Part shown: positions 21,030-31,236 of the stretch, piece after piece | How positions within the stretch are numbered: the first letter of the stretch is position 1 | Layout: each line of letters opens with the position of its first letter | Origin: a bacterium | GTDB taxonomy: Bacteria; Pseudomonadota; Gammaproteobacteria; Burkholderiales; Thiobacillaceae | NCBI GenBank assembly: GCA_009772925.1 | Contig: WOUQ01000010.1 | Span: 21,279 to 85,278 of the forward strand | Direction of reading: 5' to 3' | DNA length: 64,000 bases | Program-made: the position numbers and the translations under genes | The notes under the pieces: model-generated | The model's input: only the letters and a program-made list of their open reading frames with translations | What the model was told of the DNA's origin: nothing | Database searches by the model: none

Positions 21030-22288
21030 GCGCCTCACTGCAAAAGGGCATCAACGCCCTCAAGGAAGTCATCGACGCGCCCGTCGCGAGTTATTTCAAC
21101 AGCTGCGTGCATTGCGGCCTCTGCGCCGAGGCCTGTCTGTTCTATCTGGAAACCGGCGACGTTAAATACACGCCGATACACAAGCTGGAACCCCTGCGCC
21201 GCGTGTATGAGCAGGAATACACCTTGCTCGGCCGCCTGGGGAAAATGGTCGGACTCTCAAAGGCGGTGACCGATGACGAGTTGGAAGAGTGGAAGGAACT
21301 GGTCTACGACAGTTGCACCATGTGCGGCCGCTGCTCCATGGTCTGCCCGGTCGGCAACGACATCGTCTACATGGTGCGCAAGCTGCGCGAGGGCATGGCC
21401 GTTTCCGGCCACGCGCCGGACGGCATCAAGGGCGCCACCAAGCGCACGGTCGAGATCGGCGGCCCGATGGGCCTGAAGTGGCCGGCGGTGGCGAACGTCA
21501 TCAAGAAGGCCGAGGCGGCCACCGGCGTCAGCATCAACGTGGACAAGCCGGGCGTCGACTACCTGGTGCTGCTGTCCTCCATGGAGATCGTCAACTATCC
21601 GGAGTACCTGGAAGCCCTGGTGAAGATCTTCAAGAAGGCGGGCATCAGCTTTACCCTCGCCTCGGACGCCTTCGAAGCGACCAACGCAGGCATCCAGATC
21701 GGCGCCTCCGACATCGCCAAGGTCATCGTTTCGCGCATCATCAACTCCGCCGAGAAGCTGGGCGTGAAGTACGTGCTGTCGCCGGAATGCGGCCACGCCT
21801 ACATGGCGATCCGCTGGGAAGGCCCCAACCTCATCGGCCGGCCCTACAAGTTCGAGGTCAGGCACGTCCTCGAAGTGCTGGAAGAACTGCGCCAGAAGGG
21901 TGTGCTGAAGATGAAGGACAAGTTCAAGGAGCCGCTCATCCTGCACGATCCCTGCCAGATCGTGCGCCGCGGCGGCGTCCTGGAAGCGCCGGAACCCCTC
22001 ATCCAGACGGTGGCCGAGAACTATATCCCCATCGTCGACAAGCAGAAGTGGAACTGGTGTTGCGGCGGCGGCGGCGGCGCCTCGGCCATCCATACCGAGG
22101 AAGCCGAAGCCCTGCGCGCCAAGGCCTTCCGCATCAAGAAGCGGCAGATCGAGGAGAGTGGCGTCAACACCATGGTGACCTTCTGCGCCAACTGCCGCAT
22201 CGTGATCGAGGAAGGTTTCGACCACTACGAGATGAACACGCAGTTGCTCGGCTTGACCGAACTGCTTGCCGAACACCTGGAGGACTGA
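21026..22288 (+). CDS. isp2: Isp2, HdrD-like iron-sulfur subunit of hydrogenase
   Basis: A 420-residue cytoplasmic-side protein. Two 4Fe-4S motifs occur at residues 27-37 (CVHCGLCAEAC) and 97-107 (CTMCGRCSMVC). Two CCG-type cysteine-rich domains follow (SPECGHAY..., then CCGGGGGASAIHTEEAE and TFCANC), as in heterodisulfide reductase subunit D and DsrK. Together with Isp1 it forms a membrane module that may reduce quinone or disulfide-like acceptors. It lies 4 bases before the large-subunit gene. Confidence 0.93.
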   Translation: MSASLQKGINALKEVIDAPVASYFNSCVHCGLCAEACLFYLETGDVKYTPIHKLEPLRRVYEQEYTLLGRLGKMVGLSKAVTDDELEEWKELVYDSCTMCGRCSMVCPVGNDIVYMVRKLREGMAVSGHAPDGIKGATKRTVEIGGPMGLKWPAVANVIKKAEAATGVSINVDKPGVDYLVLLSSMEIVNYPEYLEALVKIFKKAGISFTLASDAFEATNAGIQIGASDIAKVIVSRIINSAEKLGVKYVLSPECGHAYMAIRWEGPNLIGRPYKFEVRHVLEVLEELRQKGVLKMKDKFKEPLILHDPCQIVRRGGVLEAPEPLIQTVAENYIPIVDKQKWNWCCGGGGGASAIHTEEAEALRAKAFRIKKRQIEESGVNTMVTFCANCRIVIEEGFDHYEMNTQLLGLTELLAEHLED

Positions 22289-22292
22289 ACAA

Positions 22293-24074
22293 ATGAACGC
22301 ACCCCAACGCATCGTCGTTGATCCCGTCACCCGGATCGAGGGTCACCTGCGCATCGAGGCGGAAACGGACGCATCCGGCAAGATCACGCGGGCTTCCTCC
22401 GCCGGCACCATGGTGCGCGGCATCGAAATCATCCTGCGCGGCCGCGACCCCCGCGACGCCTGGGCCTTCGCCCAGCGCATCTGCGGCGTCTGCACCCTGG
22501 TGCACGGCATGGCCTCCATCCGCTCGGTGGAAGACGCGCTGCATCGCGAGATCCCCAGTTACAGCATCCCGCGCAACGCGGAAATCATCCGCAACCTGAT
22601 GATCGGCGCGCAGTACGTGCACGACCACGTCATGCACTTCTATCACCTGCACGCCCTCGACTGGGTGGACGTGGTGTCGGCCCTGAAGGCCGATCCCAAG
22701 GCCACCTCGGCCTTGGCGCAGAGCATCAGCAACTACTCGAAGTCTTCGCCCGGCTATTTCGCCGACGTGCAGAAGAAGGTGAAGAACTTCGTCGAGCAGG
22801 GCCAGTTGGGCATCTTCGCCAACGCCTACTGGGGCCACCCGGCCTACAAGCTGCCGCCCGAGGCCAACCTGATGGCCGTGGCGCACTATCTGGAGGCCCT
22901 CGCCTGGCAGCGCGACGTGGTCAAGCTGCACGCCATCTTCGGCGGCAAGAACCCCCACCCCAACTTCGTGGTGGGCGGCACGCCCTCGGCGATTTCCGTG
23001 CACACCACCGACGGCCCGGGCAAGCCCCGAGGCGGCCAGGACGGCACGGCGGTCAACATGGTGGGCCTGCAGACCGTGCAGAGCGTTATCAAGCAGATGA
23101 AGGACTTCGTCGATCAGGTCTACATCCCCGACCTGCTGGCTATCGCCTCCTTCTACAAGGACTGGGGCGCCATCGGCAGCTCCGGCGGCAACTACCTGTC
23201 CTTCGGCGACATGCCCGAGAAGGACATCTGGACGCCGGATTCCTTCCTCATCCCGCGCGGTGTCATCCTCGATGGTGACATCAGCAAGGTGCATCCCATC
23301 AACATGGATGACGACGACGAAATCCAGGAATTCGTCAGCCACGCCTGGTACAAGTACCAAGGCGGCGATGACAAGGGCCTGCATCCCTGGAAGGGCGAGA
23401 CCGAGTTCAACTACACCGGTCCCAAGCCGCCGTATGAGCAGCTCGACGTCGATCAGAAGTATTCCTGGCTGAAGTCGCCGCGGTGGAAAGGCAAGCCCAT
23501 GGAGGTCGGCCCGCTGGCGCGTGCCCTCATCATGTACGCCACCGGCAACAAGCAGATGAAGGAACTGGTGGACTACACCCTGAAGACCCTGGACGTGCCG
23601 ATCACCGCCCTGTTCTCCACCCTGGGGCGCACCGCCGCCCGCGGCCTGGAGAGCAAGGTCATCGCCGACGCCATGCAGGGCATGTTCGATAGCCTGATCG
23701 CCAACATCAAGGCCGGCGACGTCAAGACCTTCAACGAGCAGTACTGGGATCCGGCCTCCTGGCCCAAGTCCATGAAGGGTGTCGGCCTGATGGAGGCGCC
23801 GCGCGGCGGTCTGAGCCACTGGATCGTCATCGAGAACGGCCGCATCGACAACTACCAGGCCATCGTGCCGAGTACCTGGAACGCTGGTCCGCGCGACACC
23901 GCCGGCCAGTCCGGTCCCTACGAGGCGTCGCTGCAGCATAACCACGTGCTGCACGATCCCAAGCAACCGCTGGAGATCCTGCGCACCATCCACAGCTACG
24001 ATCCCTGCCTTGCCTGCGCGGTGCACGTGACCGACCCCGAGGGTGAAGAGCTGATCCAAGTGAAAGTGAAGTAA
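22293..24074 (+). CDS. hynL: [NiFe] hydrogenase large subunit
   Basis: A 593-residue catalytic subunit. It starts MNAPQRIVVDPVTRIEGHLRIE. The L1 motif RICGVCTLVHG is near residues 62-72 and the L2 motif DPCLACAVH near 569-577, supplying the four nickel/iron cysteines. The 15 residues after that histidine (VTDPEGEELIQVKVK) are the peptide removed by HupD. GGAG lies upstream of the ATG. The isp1-isp2 insertion between subunits and the Tat signal on the partner indicate a periplasm-facing, membrane-attached enzyme of the Isp (group 1e-like) type. Confidence 0.97.
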   Translation: MNAPQRIVVDPVTRIEGHLRIEAETDASGKITRASSAGTMVRGIEIILRGRDPRDAWAFAQRICGVCTLVHGMASIRSVEDALHREIPSYSIPRNAEIIRNLMIGAQYVHDHVMHFYHLHALDWVDVVSALKADPKATSALAQSISNYSKSSPGYFADVQKKVKNFVEQGQLGIFANAYWGHPAYKLPPEANLMAVAHYLEALAWQRDVVKLHAIFGGKNPHPNFVVGGTPSAISVHTTDGPGKPRGGQDGTAVNMVGLQTVQSVIKQMKDFVDQVYIPDLLAIASFYKDWGAIGSSGGNYLSFGDMPEKDIWTPDSFLIPRGVILDGDISKVHPINMDDDDEIQEFVSHAWYKYQGGDDKGLHPWKGETEFNYTGPKPPYEQLDVDQKYSWLKSPRWKGKPMEVGPLARALIMYATGNKQMKELVDYTLKTLDVPITALFSTLGRTAARGLESKVIADAMQGMFDSLIANIKAGDVKTFNEQYWDPASWPKSMKGVGLMEAPRGGLSHWIVIENGRIDNYQAIVPSTWNAGPRDTAGQSGPYEASLQHNHVLHDPKQPLEILRTIHSYDPCLACAVHVTDPEGEELIQVKVK

Positions 24075-24077
24075 GGC

Positions 24078-24100
24078 GCCCCTTCCTCCCCGGAAGGGGC
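24078..24100 (+). other. strong RNA hairpin between hynL and the small gene
   Basis: GCCCCTTCC / GGAAGGGGC form a perfect 9-base-pair stem with a 5-base loop, starting 4 bases after the hynL stop. No T-run follows; instead the AAAGGAGG ribosome-binding site of the next gene follows directly. It is therefore more likely a processing or stabilising element than a terminator. Confidence 0.6.
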
Positions 24101-24117
24101 AGGAAAGGAGGTGTGAG

Positions 24118-24401
24118 ATGACAAAAAAGTAGTTGTTGCAACACCAGAAGTTGTAAGCAAGACCTACGGTTGGGGCGGGTGGAAGATGCCGATCTTCCAC
24201 CCCAACGACCCCGAATACTGTGAATACGGCTGTCCGATATGCACCCGCGCAAGACGGGGAGTGCCGTGGGCCGTGGCCGTGCAGAAGGCCGAACTCGCCC
24301 TGACCCTGGGCGGCTGCCCCTGGGGCCGCGCGCGCCGTCGCAAGTACGGGGTGACCCCCGATCAACCGATTCCCGTATCTCCTACTGATGGATCGATATA
24401 A
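24118..24401 (+). CDS. small Cys-containing protein with in-frame stop at a slippery site (frameshifted)
   Basis: AAAGGAGG and a 6-base spacer precede an ATG, but the frame stops after four codons (ATG ACA AAA AAG TAG). ACA AAA AAG contains the heptamer A AAA AAG. A -1 slip there reads GTA GTT GTT... without interruption to the stop at 24399. The product would have 94 residues: MTKK, VVVATPEVVSKTYGWGGWK, then MPIFHPNDPEYCEYGCPICTRARRG.... Unshifted, only the part from ATG 24186 (71 residues) could be made. The C...C..C pattern suggests metal binding. An 11-base-pair hairpin (24177-24202) lies downstream. The family is not recognised. Alternatives are a one-base deletion or an assembly error. 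It ends 2 bases before the ATPase operon. Confidence 0.6.
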
Positions 24402-24403
24402 CC

Positions 24404-24721
24404 ATGGACGATCCTCTCAAGCGTTTGTTGGAAGCCGAAGCCCGCGCGCAAAGCCTCATCGAGGCGGCCAGTCACGAACGTCAACGCCTCCTGGACGAAG
24501 CGCTGACCGCCGCGCGCGAGGCCGAGGTGCGTTTCGAGGCCGGGCGAGCCGAGTTGCGCGCCCCCTTCCTGCGCGAGGCCGGCAGCCGCGCCGACCAGGC
24601 CGTGGCCGAACTGTCGCGCAAGTACGAGGAGCGCCAGCGCAACCTGCGCGACATGGCCGCCCGCCACGAACAGGAGGCGATCGACGCCGCCCTGAATCTG
24701 CTGCTCGATCCCGCCCGCTGA
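24404..24721 (+). CDS. V/A-type ATPase peripheral-stalk subunit (G/H-like)
   Basis: A 105-residue, nearly all-helical charged protein (LLEAEARAQSLIEAASHERQRLLDEALTAAREAEVRFEAGRAEL...), predicted as one long coiled coil. Size, composition and position at the head of the ATPase cluster fit the peripheral-stalk subunit that pairs with subunit E (G in eukaryotes, H or NtpF in prokaryotes). The fold-level assignment rests on context and coiled-coil character. It starts 2 bases after the stop of the small frameshifted gene. Confidence 0.75.
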   Translation: MDDPLKRLLEAEARAQSLIEAASHERQRLLDEALTAAREAEVRFEAGRAELRAPFLREAGSRADQAVAELSRKYEERQRNLRDMAARHEQEAIDAALNLLLDPAR

Positions 24722-24758
24722 AGGGTGGGGTCGAGCCTTCTTGCCTGCGGGTAAACCC

Positions 24759-25805
24759 GTGACCGCCTATCTAAATACTCGCGTCAGCCTCTATTCCGGC
24801 CGTCTCTGGCAGCCGGCGGACTTCGAAGCCGTGCTCGCCATCCCCGACGCCGAAATGGCGGATGCCCTCGGCAGCCGCGGGCTGCCCCAACTGTCGGCAG
24901 GCTTCGACCGGCATCAGGACCACCGTTCCCTCGAACAGCGCATCATCGCCGAGTTGCTGAACGAGACCACGGTGCTCATCCGCCCCCTCACCGGTGCCGC
25001 GCGGGCCTTCCTGCTCTATTGGACCGAGCGCTTCGAGGTCAGCAACGTGAAGACCCTGCTGCGCGGCAAGATGACCGGCGAGCGGCCCGCCGCCCTGATC
25101 AACCGGCTCACCCCCATGGGCGCCTTCGGCCGCCTGGACGTGCAGGATCTGGCGCACGCCGAGGATCTCGCCGAACTCCTGCGCCGCCTGGAAGCCGGCC
25201 CCTACGCCGGCATCGTGCGCCAGGCCCGGCGCGCCTTCGAGGAGGGGCAAGACCCCTTCATCCTCGATGCCGCACTCGACCGCGGCTATTACGAAGGTCT
25301 CGCGCGGCGCGCCCAGCCGCTGGAGAACGAGGCGGGCGCCTCCTTCCGCCGCCTCATGGGGACGCTGATCGACCGCATCAACCTGGTGTGGATGCTGCGC
25401 TACCGCTTCAACTACAACCTGCCGCCCGCGCAGGTGTATTACCTGCTGGTGGCCTCGCGCTACAACCTGCCCTCCTCACGCCTGCGCGAACTGGCCGCGC
25501 TGGGCAGCGCGGAGGCGGTGCTCGACGCCCTGCCCGAGCCCCTGCGCGGCATCCTGCGCGACGCCGCCGGCATCGCCGACGTGTTCGCGCGCATGGAGAT
25601 GGATGGTGCCGAGGTGGCCGCCAAGGTGCTGCACTCGGGCGCCGCCGCCATTTCCCGCGCCTTCGCCTATCTGATCCTGCGCGAACGCGATCTGCGTTCC
25701 GTGCGCGCCATCCTGCGGGGCCGTCATCTGGACCTGCCGACGGCGGACATCCGCCTGGCCATGTTCCAGCCCGAGGCCTCCCCAGCCGTCGCGTCACCGC
25801 ACTGA
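24759..25805 (+). CDS. ntpC: V-type ATPase subunit C (AC39/V0d-like)
   Basis: A 348-residue helical protein. Family-like features are AYLNTRVSLYSGRLW at the N-terminus, the repeated V0d-type helical pattern, RLMGTLIDRINLVWMLRYRFNYNLPPAQVYYLL in the middle, and AYLILRERDLRSVRAILRGRHLDLP at the end. It forms the funnel linking the central stalk to the c-ring. The GTG at 24759 was taken as start; the ORF track uses a TTG six codons earlier, and neither has a strong ribosome-binding site. Confidence 0.87.
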   Translation: MTAYLNTRVSLYSGRLWQPADFEAVLAIPDAEMADALGSRGLPQLSAGFDRHQDHRSLEQRIIAELLNETTVLIRPLTGAARAFLLYWTERFEVSNVKTLLRGKMTGERPAALINRLTPMGAFGRLDVQDLAHAEDLAELLRRLEAGPYAGIVRQARRAFEEGQDPFILDAALDRGYYEGLARRAQPLENEAGASFRRLMGTLIDRINLVWMLRYRFNYNLPPAQVYYLLVASRYNLPSSRLRELAALGSAEAVLDALPEPLRGILRDAAGIADVFARMEMDGAEVAAKVLHSGAAAISRAFAYLILRERDLRSVRAILRGRHLDLPTADIRLAMFQPEASPAVASPH

Positions 25806-25879
25806 ATCATGCGCGCGCTGTCACCCACCCCCTTCTCCGCCGCGATCGCCGGCCGGCTTTCGCGACAAAGGAATGCCTG

Positions 25880-27766
25880 ATGTTCCGCGCCGAACCTCTG
25901 GTCCGCATCCGCCTGCTCATGCTGGCTTCCGAGGCGGCCGACGCCGCCCTCGAACTGGCCCGCTTCGGCGTCTTCAGTCCGGCCGCGCACACGCCGCCGG
26001 AACTCGCCGAGAGCCTCGCCGACCCCTACCGGGAGGCCTGGCTGGAGGCCGAGTCGCGTGTCTCCAAGCTGGTCGAGCGTTGCGGCAACATGGGCGAGCT
26101 CATCATCCCCGAGGGCGCCGCCGCCCCCACCCTGGCCGATCTGGATGAACTCAACGCCTGGCTCAAGGGAGTCTGGAATACCTGTCTGTCCGCGCACGAG
26201 GGTGAGGCCCGCATCCAGGAGGAAATCCGCCACCTGGACGCCCTCGAGGACACCCTGACCAAGCTGGAGCGCCTGAACGTCGACCTCGCCCAGTTGCTGC
26301 GTGCCGACGGCCTGCTGGCGGTGAACATCGGCAGCCTGCCGGCCGGCAGCGTCAGGCGGGTGGCGGAAGCCCTGGCCATGACCGGCTCCCTGGTGACCAC
26401 CTTCGACCAGGTCGGCGGCCAGGCCTACACCGTCATCGCCGGTCCGCGCGATCGTCACGACGAGGTGCGCGGCCTGCTCTCCCAGGCGGGCTGGCGTGAA
26501 CTGCCGGTGCCTCCGGAACTGCGCATCCACCCGCAGGCCGCCCGTGCCTGGCTGGCGGAGGAACGTCAACGCGTGGAGGCCATGAACGTGCGCGAATGCG
26601 CCGCCATGGACAACCTGCGCGGGCAATACCGCACCGGCCTGGAGGAAGCGCGCCTGCGTGTCGCCCTCGGCCGCCCCCTGGCAGAAGCGGCGATGGTCGG
26701 TGTGCGCGGGCGCGGCGGACTCGCCGGCCTCGCGGGCTGGGTGCCGCGGCGCCGCGTCGAAGCCTTGAAGACCGCCCTGGAACAACGTTTCCGCGGCCGC
26801 TATTGGCTGGCCATCGAACCCCCCCGGCGCGACGAGGCGGCGCAGGTGCCCTCGCTGGTGCGTTATCCGGTCTGGCTGCAACCCTTCGTGCCGCTGGTCA
26901 AGAGCTATGGCGTGCCGCGCTACGGCGAGTTCGACCCGACCTTGCCCTTCGCCTTCACCTACCTGCTGCTGTTCGGCGCCATGTTCGGCGACATCGGCCA
27001 CGGCGCGGTGATCTTGCTGCTGGCGGCGAGCCTCTACAAGAAGCTGGGCAAGCTGGCCTGGATCGGTGTCGCCGCCGGTGCCGTGTCCATGCTCTTTGGC
27101 CTGCTTTACGGCAGTATCTTCGGCTACGAGGACATCCTTCATCCACTTTGGATGTCGCCCTTGCACCATCCCACGCAGATGCTGACCCTGGCGGTGTCCT
27201 TCGGCGTCGGCTTCATCATCCTTACCCTGCTGGTGAACGCCCGCAACCAGTACACGGCGGGGCATGTGCACGCGGCCCTGTTCGATTCCACCGGCCTCGC
27301 CGGCCTGCTCTTCTACCTGGGCGCGGTGGGCGGCGTGGTCAGCCTGGCGGGCGGCGCCGCCCTCGCCACGCCATCCTGGATCCTGGCCGGCATCGGCATC
27401 ACCATCGTCGCCTTGTTCAAGTGGATCGAGACCCGTGCCAGCCTGGGCGAGCGCGTGCTGGTGACTTCCATCGAGACCCTGGAGACCGGCATCAACCTGT
27501 TCGCCAACACCCTGTCCTTCATGCGCGTGGCGGCCTTCAGCCTGAACCACGTCGCCCTGGCCCTGGCCGTGTTCACCCTCGCCAACGGCATGGGCACGGC
27601 GGGCCACTGGCTGACCATCGTGCTGGGCAACGTGGTGATCATCGTGCTGGAGGGCGGCATCGTCGCCATCCAGGCCCTGCGTCTCATGTATTACGAAGGC
27701 TTCTCCCGCTTCTTCAGCGGGGATGGAACGGAATTCGTGCCCCTGAAACTGGTGGGCGTAAAGTGA
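25880..27766 (+). CDS. ntpI: V-type ATPase subunit I (V0 a subunit)
   Basis: A 628-residue protein. The N-terminal half is cytoplasmic and helical (residues 1-330). The membrane half has about seven or eight helices and begins with the family motif SYGVPRYGEFDPTLPFAFTYLLLFGAMFGDIGHG. The essential arginine of the ion half-channel is in NTLSFMRVAAFSLNHVALA. AAAGGA precedes the ATG at 25880; the ORF-track frame extends far upstream inside ntpC and is not used. It provides the stator side of ion translocation. Confidence 0.94.
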   Translation: MFRAEPLVRIRLLMLASEAADAALELARFGVFSPAAHTPPELAESLADPYREAWLEAESRVSKLVERCGNMGELIIPEGAAAPTLADLDELNAWLKGVWNTCLSAHEGEARIQEEIRHLDALEDTLTKLERLNVDLAQLLRADGLLAVNIGSLPAGSVRRVAEALAMTGSLVTTFDQVGGQAYTVIAGPRDRHDEVRGLLSQAGWRELPVPPELRIHPQAARAWLAEERQRVEAMNVRECAAMDNLRGQYRTGLEEARLRVALGRPLAEAAMVGVRGRGGLAGLAGWVPRRRVEALKTALEQRFRGRYWLAIEPPRRDEAAQVPSLVRYPVWLQPFVPLVKSYGVPRYGEFDPTLPFAFTYLLLFGAMFGDIGHGAVILLLAASLYKKLGKLAWIGVAAGAVSMLFGLLYGSIFGYEDILHPLWMSPLHHPTQMLTLAVSFGVGFIILTLLVNARNQYTAGHVHAALFDSTGLAGLLFYLGAVGGVVSLAGGAALATPSWILAGIGITIVALFKWIETRASLGERVLVTSIETLETGINLFANTLSFMRVAAFSLNHVALALAVFTLANGMGTAGHWLTIVLGNVVIIVLEGGIVAIQALRLMYYEGFSRFFSGDGTEFVPLKLVGVK

Positions 27767-27802
27767 AACGGCGTGACTTGTTTGCGTGACTAGGAGAAAA
27801 AA

Positions 27803-28243
27803 ATGAGCTGGCTGATCGCATTGATGGGACTTTCCGTGGCCGCCACCATCGCGGCGGGCGTCTGGCTGGAGATGAAGCCGCGCCGGCTGCCTTCGCCGCG
27901 CTGGCTGAAGGGGGGCGTGTTCGGGAATTTCCTGGTCTTCGGCTTAGGCTTGGCCGCCTTCCTCTACATGGGCGTCCAGGATGTCATGGCCCAGGAAGCC
28001 GTGGCCACCGGCGGCAGTGGCATCTCCATGGCCGTGGGCCTCGCCCTCATCGGCATCGGTTTGCCGACGGGGCTGGCGGCCATCGGCGCCGGCATCGCCC
28101 TGGGTCCGGTGGGCGCCGCGGCACTGGCGGTGATCGCCGAGAAACCCGAGATGTTCGGCCGCACCCTGATCTACATGGGCCTGGCGGAAGGTATCGCGAT
28201 TTACGGTCTGGTCATGTCCATCCTGCTCCTGGGCAAGCTCTGA
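27803..28243 (+). CDS. ntpK: V-type ATPase subunit K (c-ring)
   Basis: A 146-residue proteolipid with four hydrophobic helices. The second hairpin is canonical: GGSGISMAVGLALIGIGLPTGLAAIGAGIALGPVGAAAL, loop IAEKPEMFGRT, then the helix with the ion-binding glutamate in YMGLAEGIAIYGLVMSILLL. The first hairpin (residues 1-62) has no carboxylate. The glutamate is followed by Gly rather than Ser/Thr, and no sodium-site glutamine is visible, which suggests proton rather than sodium coupling (inference). Confidence 0.93.
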   Translation: MSWLIALMGLSVAATIAAGVWLEMKPRRLPSPRWLKGGVFGNFLVFGLGLAAFLYMGVQDVMAQEAVATGGSGISMAVGLALIGIGLPTGLAAIGAGIALGPVGAAALAVIAEKPEMFGRTLIYMGLAEGIAIYGLVMSILLLGKL

Positions 28244-28252
28244 GGAGATGGC

Positions 28253-28597
28253 GTGAAACCCGACGCGGACAAACCGCTGAGCGGCGGCCGCCTGGTGGTG
28301 CTGGGCAGCGCCGGGCTGACCGAGGGCTTCAGCCTGATCGGCGCCGAGATCCATGCCGACGCCGACGCGGCCAAGGTCGAGGAAGTCCTTGGCCAGCTGG
28401 TGCGTGACGGCAGCGAGGCCCTGGTCCTGCTGGAGTCCAGCCTGGCCCACGCCGGCGGACACTGGCTCAACCGCTTGCGCAACGAGGGCGGCCGCATCGT
28501 CGTGACCGAGCTGCCTTCGTTGTCCACGCCCCGCGACTACGCCCCGGCGGTGGATGAGGTGGTGCGCGCGGTGCTGGGTCCGGAAGCATTGAAATGA
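28253..28597 (+). CDS. ntpG: V-type ATPase subunit F
   Basis: A 114-residue protein with the CheY-like pattern of subunit F: LVVLGSAGLTEGFSLIGAEIHADADAAKVEEVLGQLV, then EALVLLESSLAHAG. It regulates the central stalk. It starts at GTG with GAGGAG just upstream, 9 bases after ntpK. A 137-base spacer with hairpins separates it from ntpE. Confidence 0.85.
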   Translation: MKPDADKPLSGGRLVVLGSAGLTEGFSLIGAEIHADADAAKVEEVLGQLVRDGSEALVLLESSLAHAGGHWLNRLRNEGGRIVVTELPSLSTPRDYAPAVDEVVRAVLGPEALK

Positions 28598-28734
28598 GCC
28601 CACCCCGAAAACCTCGCTGCGCTCGGTTCTCCCCTCGAGGGGCAAGAAAACTCGGTGCGGCCCGTCGTTTTCTTGGGAGGCATGAGCGGAGCAGGCTCGG
28701 GACGCGCGTCCCGGCCTGATTCCCGGAGAGACAC
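28598..28734. other. intergenic spacer with inverted repeats inside the ATPase operon
   Basis: No coding frame. It contains AAGAAAAC / GTTTTCTT with a 15-base loop, CCCCTCGAGGGG and GGGACGCGCGTCCC. It may be a repetitive intergenic sequence or an mRNA processing site between ntpG and ntpE. No clear terminator T-run is seen. Confidence 0.5.
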
Positions 28735-29385
28735 ATGGAAGCAGATGCACAAGTCCTGCAACTTGAACAGGCGCTGATCCGCCAGGCCGAGAGCCTGGCG
28801 CGCGAACAGCGCGAGCGGGCCGAGTCGGGCAAGGCCCGGATCCTGCTGGAAGCCGGCGAGAAGATTCGTCTGGCCGAGGAACGCGAGGTCCTGGCGGCCA
28901 AGGCGGAAGCCGAACGCATCGTGCGGCGGCAGACCCAGGCGGCGGAAACCCGCCTGGCGGCTGAGCTCGATCGGCGGCGCTGGGCCCTCACGGAATCGGT
29001 CCTGTCCGGCGTGCGCGCCGCATTCCAGGCGCTGGTCGCCGACGAAACCCGCTACCACGCGGTGCTCGAACAGTGGCTGGCGGCGGCCGCGCGCGACCTG
29101 CCTGCGGGTGAACTGGTGGCGGAAGTGCGCGCCGCCGACCACACCCGCCTCGCCCCTGCCTGGGTCACGCTGGCCACCCGCGCCGCGCCCGGCCGCAAGG
29201 TGGAACTGGCGACGCATGGTCAGGCCAGCGAAGGCGGCATTCGCGTGCGCCTGGCGGACAATCGGGCGCAACTGGACCAGACCTTCGAGGCGCGCCGCGA
29301 ACGGCTGGCCGACGAGCTGGCACGCGTCGCCATGGCGCGACTGTTCTCCAGCGCCCCCGACCTCGGCACCCTGGTGCACGGATGA
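28735..29385 (+). CDS. ntpE: V-type ATPase subunit E (peripheral stalk)
   Basis: A 216-residue protein. Residues 1-90 are a long charged helix (EADAQVLQLEQALIRQAESLAREQRERAESGKARILLEAGEKIRLAEEREVLAAKAEAERIV). A globular C-terminal domain follows. This is the subunit E architecture, which pairs with the G/H-like subunit in the stator. CGGAGAG precedes the ATG. It is placed between the F and A subunit genes as in other bacterial V-type operons. Confidence 0.87.
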   Translation: MEADAQVLQLEQALIRQAESLAREQRERAESGKARILLEAGEKIRLAEEREVLAAKAEAERIVRRQTQAAETRLAAELDRRRWALTESVLSGVRAAFQALVADETRYHAVLEQWLAAAARDLPAGELVAEVRAADHTRLAPAWVTLATRAAPGRKVELATHGQASEGGIRVRLADNRAQLDQTFEARRERLADELARVAMARLFSSAPDLGTLVHG

Positions 29386-29391
29386 TGTTGG

Positions 29392-29445
29392 GAAATGGGT
29401 AATGGGCAGCGGGCAGTCGGGGTTTTCCCGCTACCCGCTCCCGAC
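29392..29445. repeat. G-rich hexamer repeat pair, ntpE-ntpA spacer
   Basis: Left arm GGGAAATGGGTAATGGGCAGCGGGCAG and right arm TTTTCCCGCTACCCGCTCCC form a degenerate inverted repeat built from GGGNANN units. It is the same type as at 32.66, 38.86 and 46.70 kb. Confidence 0.6.
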
Positions 29446-29457
29446 AAAGGAAAGTAA

Positions 29458-31236
<1,779 letters not shown>

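Follow-up and report, generated by a model that had tools for sequence, protein, structure and literature searches.

The small gene directly behind hynL in the 64,000-nt window (the whole stretch of DNA analysed, from genome G000) looks like the site of a lineage-specific frame break, possibly rescued by ribosomal slippage, and not like an established programmed frameshift. Its start codon opens a frame of four codons that ends at the slippery heptamer A AAA AAG and an immediate stop; a −1 slip at the heptamer leads into a conserved frame with four invariant cysteines. The break is shared with one other species and is derived, the frames of all other homologues are open, the gene has been lost repeatedly in the genus, and the downstream frame bears the marks of purifying selection. 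The best single explanation is that the frame of a non-essential small gene was broken in the ancestor of two species and is rescued by low-level −1 slippage. We hold this reading tentatively, as one that could well be wrong, with internal initiation and simple decay as its serious rivals.

The start region and its locus

The small gene is preceded by an Isp-type hynSL hydrogenase cluster, HycI-HupH-hynS-isp1-isp2-hynL (Table 1). An apparent V/A-type ATPase operon (24404-31236) lies directly after the hydrogenase cluster, with a HupE-like gene between the two in G036. From 24104 to 24132 the forward strand reads AAAGGAGG TGTGAG ATG ACA AAA AAG TAG, which bears out the sequence-only reading of a near-ideal Shine-Dalgarno (SD) sequence, a 6-base spacer, an ATG and a heptamer in the correct phase. 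A −1 slip at the heptamer joins MTKK to the open frame through the junction KKVVVATPEVVSK and yields, as that reading held, an uninterrupted 94-aa protein (MTKKVVVATPEVVSKTYGWGGWKMPIFHPND...) that stops at 24399-24401. In the −1 frame the open stretch begins only at 24117, after a TGA at 24114; its 19 upstream codons, said to lack a start codon of their own, do so if counted from the codon after the heptamer. Stimulation of −1 shifts by an SD acts from about 10–14 nt upstream of a heptamer. The present SD had been placed about 10 bases upstream; it is indeed close, at a measured distance of 11 nt, although it is also the initiation SD.

Two simple ways around the break were rejected. A non-ATG start in the −1 frame would have to lie between TGA 24114 and ATG 24186, where there is no ATG, GTG or TTG, nor CTG, ATT, ATA or ATC. 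An intact duplicate elsewhere in the genome is ruled out by a single match for the small gene, which is thus single-copy in G000.

The predicted fold of 24074-24118 (−25.0 kcal/mol) pairs 4/5 SD bases; this pairing is also found in G015 and is less clear in others. Because the SD is paired with the hairpin past hynL, translation of the small gene would be coupled to that of hynL, as far as the folding of a single sequence suggests. The GC-rich hairpin itself (24075-24111), able to sequester the SD of the next gene, has a similar counterpart with altered stem bases in congeners, that is, genomes of the same genus (CCCCTTCC/GGAAGGGG against CCCCTCCC/GGGAGGGG). A perfect 11-bp hairpin also occurs inside the coding region at 24177-24202 (GGGTGGAAGAT-GCCG-ATCTTCCACCC), where it contains the internal ATG, and G015 has a similar one.

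Table 1. Features in and around the start of the small gene (window coordinates).
Feature	Position	Strand	Details
hynL, [NiFe] hydrogenase large subunit	22281-24074	+	PF00374, 3e-234; immediately upstream of the small gene
Intergenic leader, hynL to small gene	24075-24117	+	GC-rich hairpin just past the hynL stop pairs with the SD (predicted fold)
Shine-Dalgarno AAAGGAGG	24104-24111	+	6 nt before ATG 24118, 11 nt before the heptamer; SD:anti-SD duplex −12.9 kcal/mol
Downstream (−1) frame, conserved small Cys4 protein	24117-24401	+	core YGWGGWKMPIFHPNDPEYCEYGCPICTRAR...GGCPWGRARRRKYGVTPDQP
Zero-frame mini-ORF ATG ACA AAA AAG TAG (MTKK-stop)	24118-24132	+	ATG 24118-24120, TAG 24130-24132
Slippery heptamer A AAA AAG	24123-24129	+	in phase with ATG 24118
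Probable degenerate ~18-nt tandem duplication (GTAGTTGTT-GCAACACCA / GAAGTTGTAAGCAAGACC)	24129-24164	+	variable N-terminal tail
Possible internal start ATG 24186, 71 aa	24186-24401	+	complete universal core

Relatives, ancestral frame and losses

Homologues were sought in 199 relatives and a GTDB contig set, and two weak matches (G047, L016; G059:C142, L017) were left out of the homologue set. A class-wide search (369 genomes) added no member, only a single weak and partial match. The same start was found in one other copy, in the betaproteobacterial MAG G020 (VGVT01000047.1), which has an identical ATGACAAAAAAGTAG and whose mini-ORF, leader and A6 run are identical to those of G000 (L003/L018/L032). 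G020 is the nearest congener, with 95.06% DNA identity between the loci over 18.6 kb and a synonymous divergence of 0.10-0.21 in neighbouring genes (about 12-16% in the operon); by this divergence the two are separate lineages at about species level. Because separate lineages carry the same bases, a shared assembly error is implausible. Homopolymers are error-prone and the genomes are drafts, but the run has only six A, it recurs in an independent MAG of another species, and the net difference from relatives is +11 nt and not one base. The suggestion of a sequencing or assembly error in the A-run is thereby effectively excluded.

Eight further genomes carry the gene behind hynL, and in each of them the start is in frame with the core and there is neither A AAA AAG nor an early stop. 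These are the congeners G006, G007, G011 (where hynL and the small gene are on separate contigs), G015, G016, G019 and G022, together with G036 from another genus. Homologues outside the hynL context (G014, G059, G005, Syntrophaceae, Desulfobacterales, Planctomycetes) are also open. The heptamer followed by a stop, which the sequence-only reading had proposed to look for in homologues, is present in G020 alone among those examined; the others are uninterrupted and have no slippery site, a result that the same reading had named in advance as one that would refute it. Most congeners with an intact gene retain the leader GGAGGTGTGA(A/G/C)ATG. The intact congener genes thus resemble the window gene in locus, in most cases in SD, and in protein sequence (about 71-80% identity), but differ in an ATG in frame with the core and in lacking both A AAA AAG and the early TAG. 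Since all other homologues are uninterrupted, the open frame is ancestral and the break is derived.

A hynL-like match is present in 21/23 genomes of the genus, and the sequence behind the hynL C-terminus was read in 17 other congeners. Seven of these have an intact small gene, eight have no recognisable copy there (G002, G003, G004, G009, G010, G014, G018 and G021), and two have relics. The relics, in G012 (L015) and G008, are fragments for the C-terminal part only (LGGGPWGRARRRN... and a GRARR/REYGVGPAQ remnant). From the absent copies and the relics it follows that the gene is dispensable and has been repeatedly lost. The degenerate remnants between hynL and the ATPase operon (L091 in G012, L101 in G008) apparently record two separate losses.

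The sequence-only reading had also considered a recent one-base deletion. A mutation is supported, but it predates the G000/G020 split, and its net effect relative to relatives is +11 nt. From the ATG to the AAG codon that lies two codons ahead of the conserved Tyr there are 38 nt in the window, against 27 nt (counted by hand) to the matching AAG/AGG codon in G015 and G022. For the break, a net +11-nt change in a poorly conserved N-terminal tail is therefore a better description than a simple one-base deletion. A candidate origin is the ~18-nt duplication: when one copy is shuffled, only 0.015% of the shuffles align as well as the two real units do (p about 1.5e-4). The +11 nt may have arisen through this duplication together with a one-base loss. 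A one-base loss in an early A7 run automatically gives both A AAA AAG and a frame that can be restored by a −1 shift, so the heptamer and the frame break need not be independent coincidences.

Constraint on the downstream frame and the four-cysteine family

The G000 and G020 copies of the 282-nt downstream frame differ by nine changes, five synonymous and four nonsynonymous, with no stop and no indel. About 35-46 changes would be expected without constraint, and the synonymous rate in the flanking genes predicts about 35 (P 2e-7); for nonsynonymous changes in the −1 frame, about 26-34 would be expected under neutrality. A comparison of nonsynonymous with synonymous sites gives a Fisher p of 3e-6 with the two flanking genes and 2e-10 with all seven genes, while the synonymous excess within the small gene alone is marginal (p = 0.056). 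Low change extends to the region ahead of the core: the 69 nt before the internal ATG 24186 have one change against 8.5-11 expected, and the leader and heptamer (24075-24146) have none against 8.9-11.6. The 138-nt identical run in which the leader and heptamer lie (24009-24146) ranks no higher than seventh by length over the 18.6 kb. Measured against intact homologues, the core has an omega of 0.11-0.20, in the same range as among intact copies. The downstream frame is thus still under purifying selection, although with two genomes and few events a low local rate or recombination could contribute.

An alignment of 18 homologues shows invariant C35, C39, C42 and C67 in the family pattern C-x3-C-P-x-C ... 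G-G-C-x-W-G-R-A-R-x2-K-x2-V, and every invariant residue, these cysteines included, is kept in the window copy. This retention and the purifying selection on the frame indicate that the product is probably still made. The cysteines suggest a putative metal-binding (Zn or Fe-S) role. The window protein has no Pfam match at E <= 0.001 and no NCBIfam match at 0.1, and the best Pfam match among the 18 members (0.0099) is implausible. A sequence search of the PDB matched no family (best E 0.63), and a fold search of the PDB gave no match, with a mediocre AlphaFold model (pLDDT 67.5). The window copy and its homologues (24117-24401, L003-L014, L018-L031) make up an undescribed small family, CxxxCPxC...GGC[PW]WGRAR, found behind Isp-type hynL in this genus and in G036 and in other contexts in Desulfobacterales, Syntrophaceae and Planctomycetes.

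Slippage and its rivals

In the slippage explanation, a change in the dispensable N-terminal tail would have broken the frame in the common ancestor of the two species, at A AAA AAG and 11 nt behind the gene's own SD. A minority of the ribosomes that have just initiated at ATG 24118 would move back by one base and go on to produce the 94-aa protein, and this low-level output would be enough to maintain selection on the conserved core. The simplest route to the product is a −1 slip assisted by the initiation SD; we infer that slippage, and not an internal start, is its source, and that production is low and unregulated. Among bacterial heptamers A_AAA_AAG ranks with the most slip-prone, slipping at about 0.3% in E. 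coli when no stimulator is present, and −1 frameshifting can be stimulated by an SD upstream (PMC4066793). A downstream structure is not found at every bacterial frameshift site (PMC4066793); the predicted fold here shows no stem-loop or pseudoknot at 5-9 nt past the heptamer. Pairing near 24133 is weak, and the strong hairpin does not begin until about 38 nt or more beyond the heptamer. Adjacent genes a few bases apart encode tRNA-Lys(ttt) and tRNA-Lys(ctt) (L041/L042, G000:C22:78881-79032), so that AAG is not left to slip-prone decoding by a sole tRNA-Lys(UUU). The tRNA-Lys(CUU) is expected to reduce slippage at AAG without precluding it (PMC4066793, PMC5009743). Compensatory frameshifting and 'savior' indels are documented (PMC5009743), and the small gene shares with them a derived, putatively correctable in part, indel in an A-rich stretch of a gene under selection; it differs in a run of only six A, in a GC-rich genome and in a rescue that is putative. 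At a fraction of a percent, slippage might be insufficient to have an effect, and with two genomes and nine changes low divergence or recombination could mimic the constraint.

Core conservation is accounted for equally well by internal initiation, in which MTKK-stop would be translated and terminated and a functional 71-aa product would begin at ATG 24186. Planctomycete homologues begin at MFDPEFC, at about the same place, from which it follows that the YGWGGWK extension is not universal, and an SD-like stretch precedes the internal ATG (duplex −8.0 kcal/mol). This ATG is, however, buried in an 11-bp GC-rich hairpin (fold about −29 kcal/mol), 53 nt past the stop. Moreover, all proteobacterial-type and Desulfobacterales/Syntrophaceae relatives retain the Y-x-W-x-G-W-K block that precedes this ATG, and the window copy has it intact. 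We regard an internal start as unlikely, though a real contender. Ordinary decay, with a recent pseudogene and a heptamer left over from an indel in an A-rich stretch, is similarly unlikely and has to be taken just as seriously. The break is limited to one lineage, and the gene is dispensable in relatives, being unrecognisable behind hynL in 8/17 other congeners and fragmentary in G012 and G008; under published criteria, a frame break found in no more than one or two genera counts as a pseudogene or hypothetical pseudogene (PMC3711429). Against decay, the relaxed selection expected of a broken frame is not seen, within few events in total: the nine changes fall well below the neutral 35-46, without a stop or indel and with all invariant residues in place.

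Programmed −1 frameshifting very early in the gene, regulating output with the initiation SD doubling as stimulator, is a further rival; such early frameshifting was among the three options of the sequence-only reading. The site resembles the dnaX-type −1 frameshift in heptamer, phase and approximate SD distance, and 24009-24146 is identical in two species. Unlike dnaX, it has no close downstream stem-loop, its stop comes right after the heptamer at codons 3-4, its SD is the gene's own initiation SD, it is confined to two genomes, and it sits in a genome with tRNA-Lys(CUU). The host's own dnaX gene lacks A AAA AAG. The +1 frameshift of prfB likewise combines an early stop and a close upstream SD with a full product that is made only through a change of frame, but here the shift is −1, there is no release-factor autoregulation, and the arrangement is not widely conserved. 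Published criteria for a programmed frameshift ask for a conserved site in five or more members (PMC3711429); with two members of one genus and a site that is absent from all other homologues, the present case is not a programmed frameshift by these criteria, and we consider one highly improbable. The more specific idea that one SD has two jobs, starting translation and stimulating a −1 slip at codons 3-4 that sets the output of a hydrogenase-operon protein, is improbable too; the initiation-proximal frameshift fixed in a two-species lineage that it entails is part of the same reading and equally doubtful.

If the gene is decaying, the mutation is an ordinary one, and the case cautions against taking every in-phase heptamer for recoding. 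If slippage rescues it, the locus would be a natural, evolutionarily recent frame break, tolerated because of its position at a slippery run beside a strong SD; it would be a straightforward setting in which to ask whether an SD used for initiation can stimulate frameshifting a few codons later. The analysis also draws attention to the undescribed four-cysteine family behind Isp-type hydrogenases in this genus.
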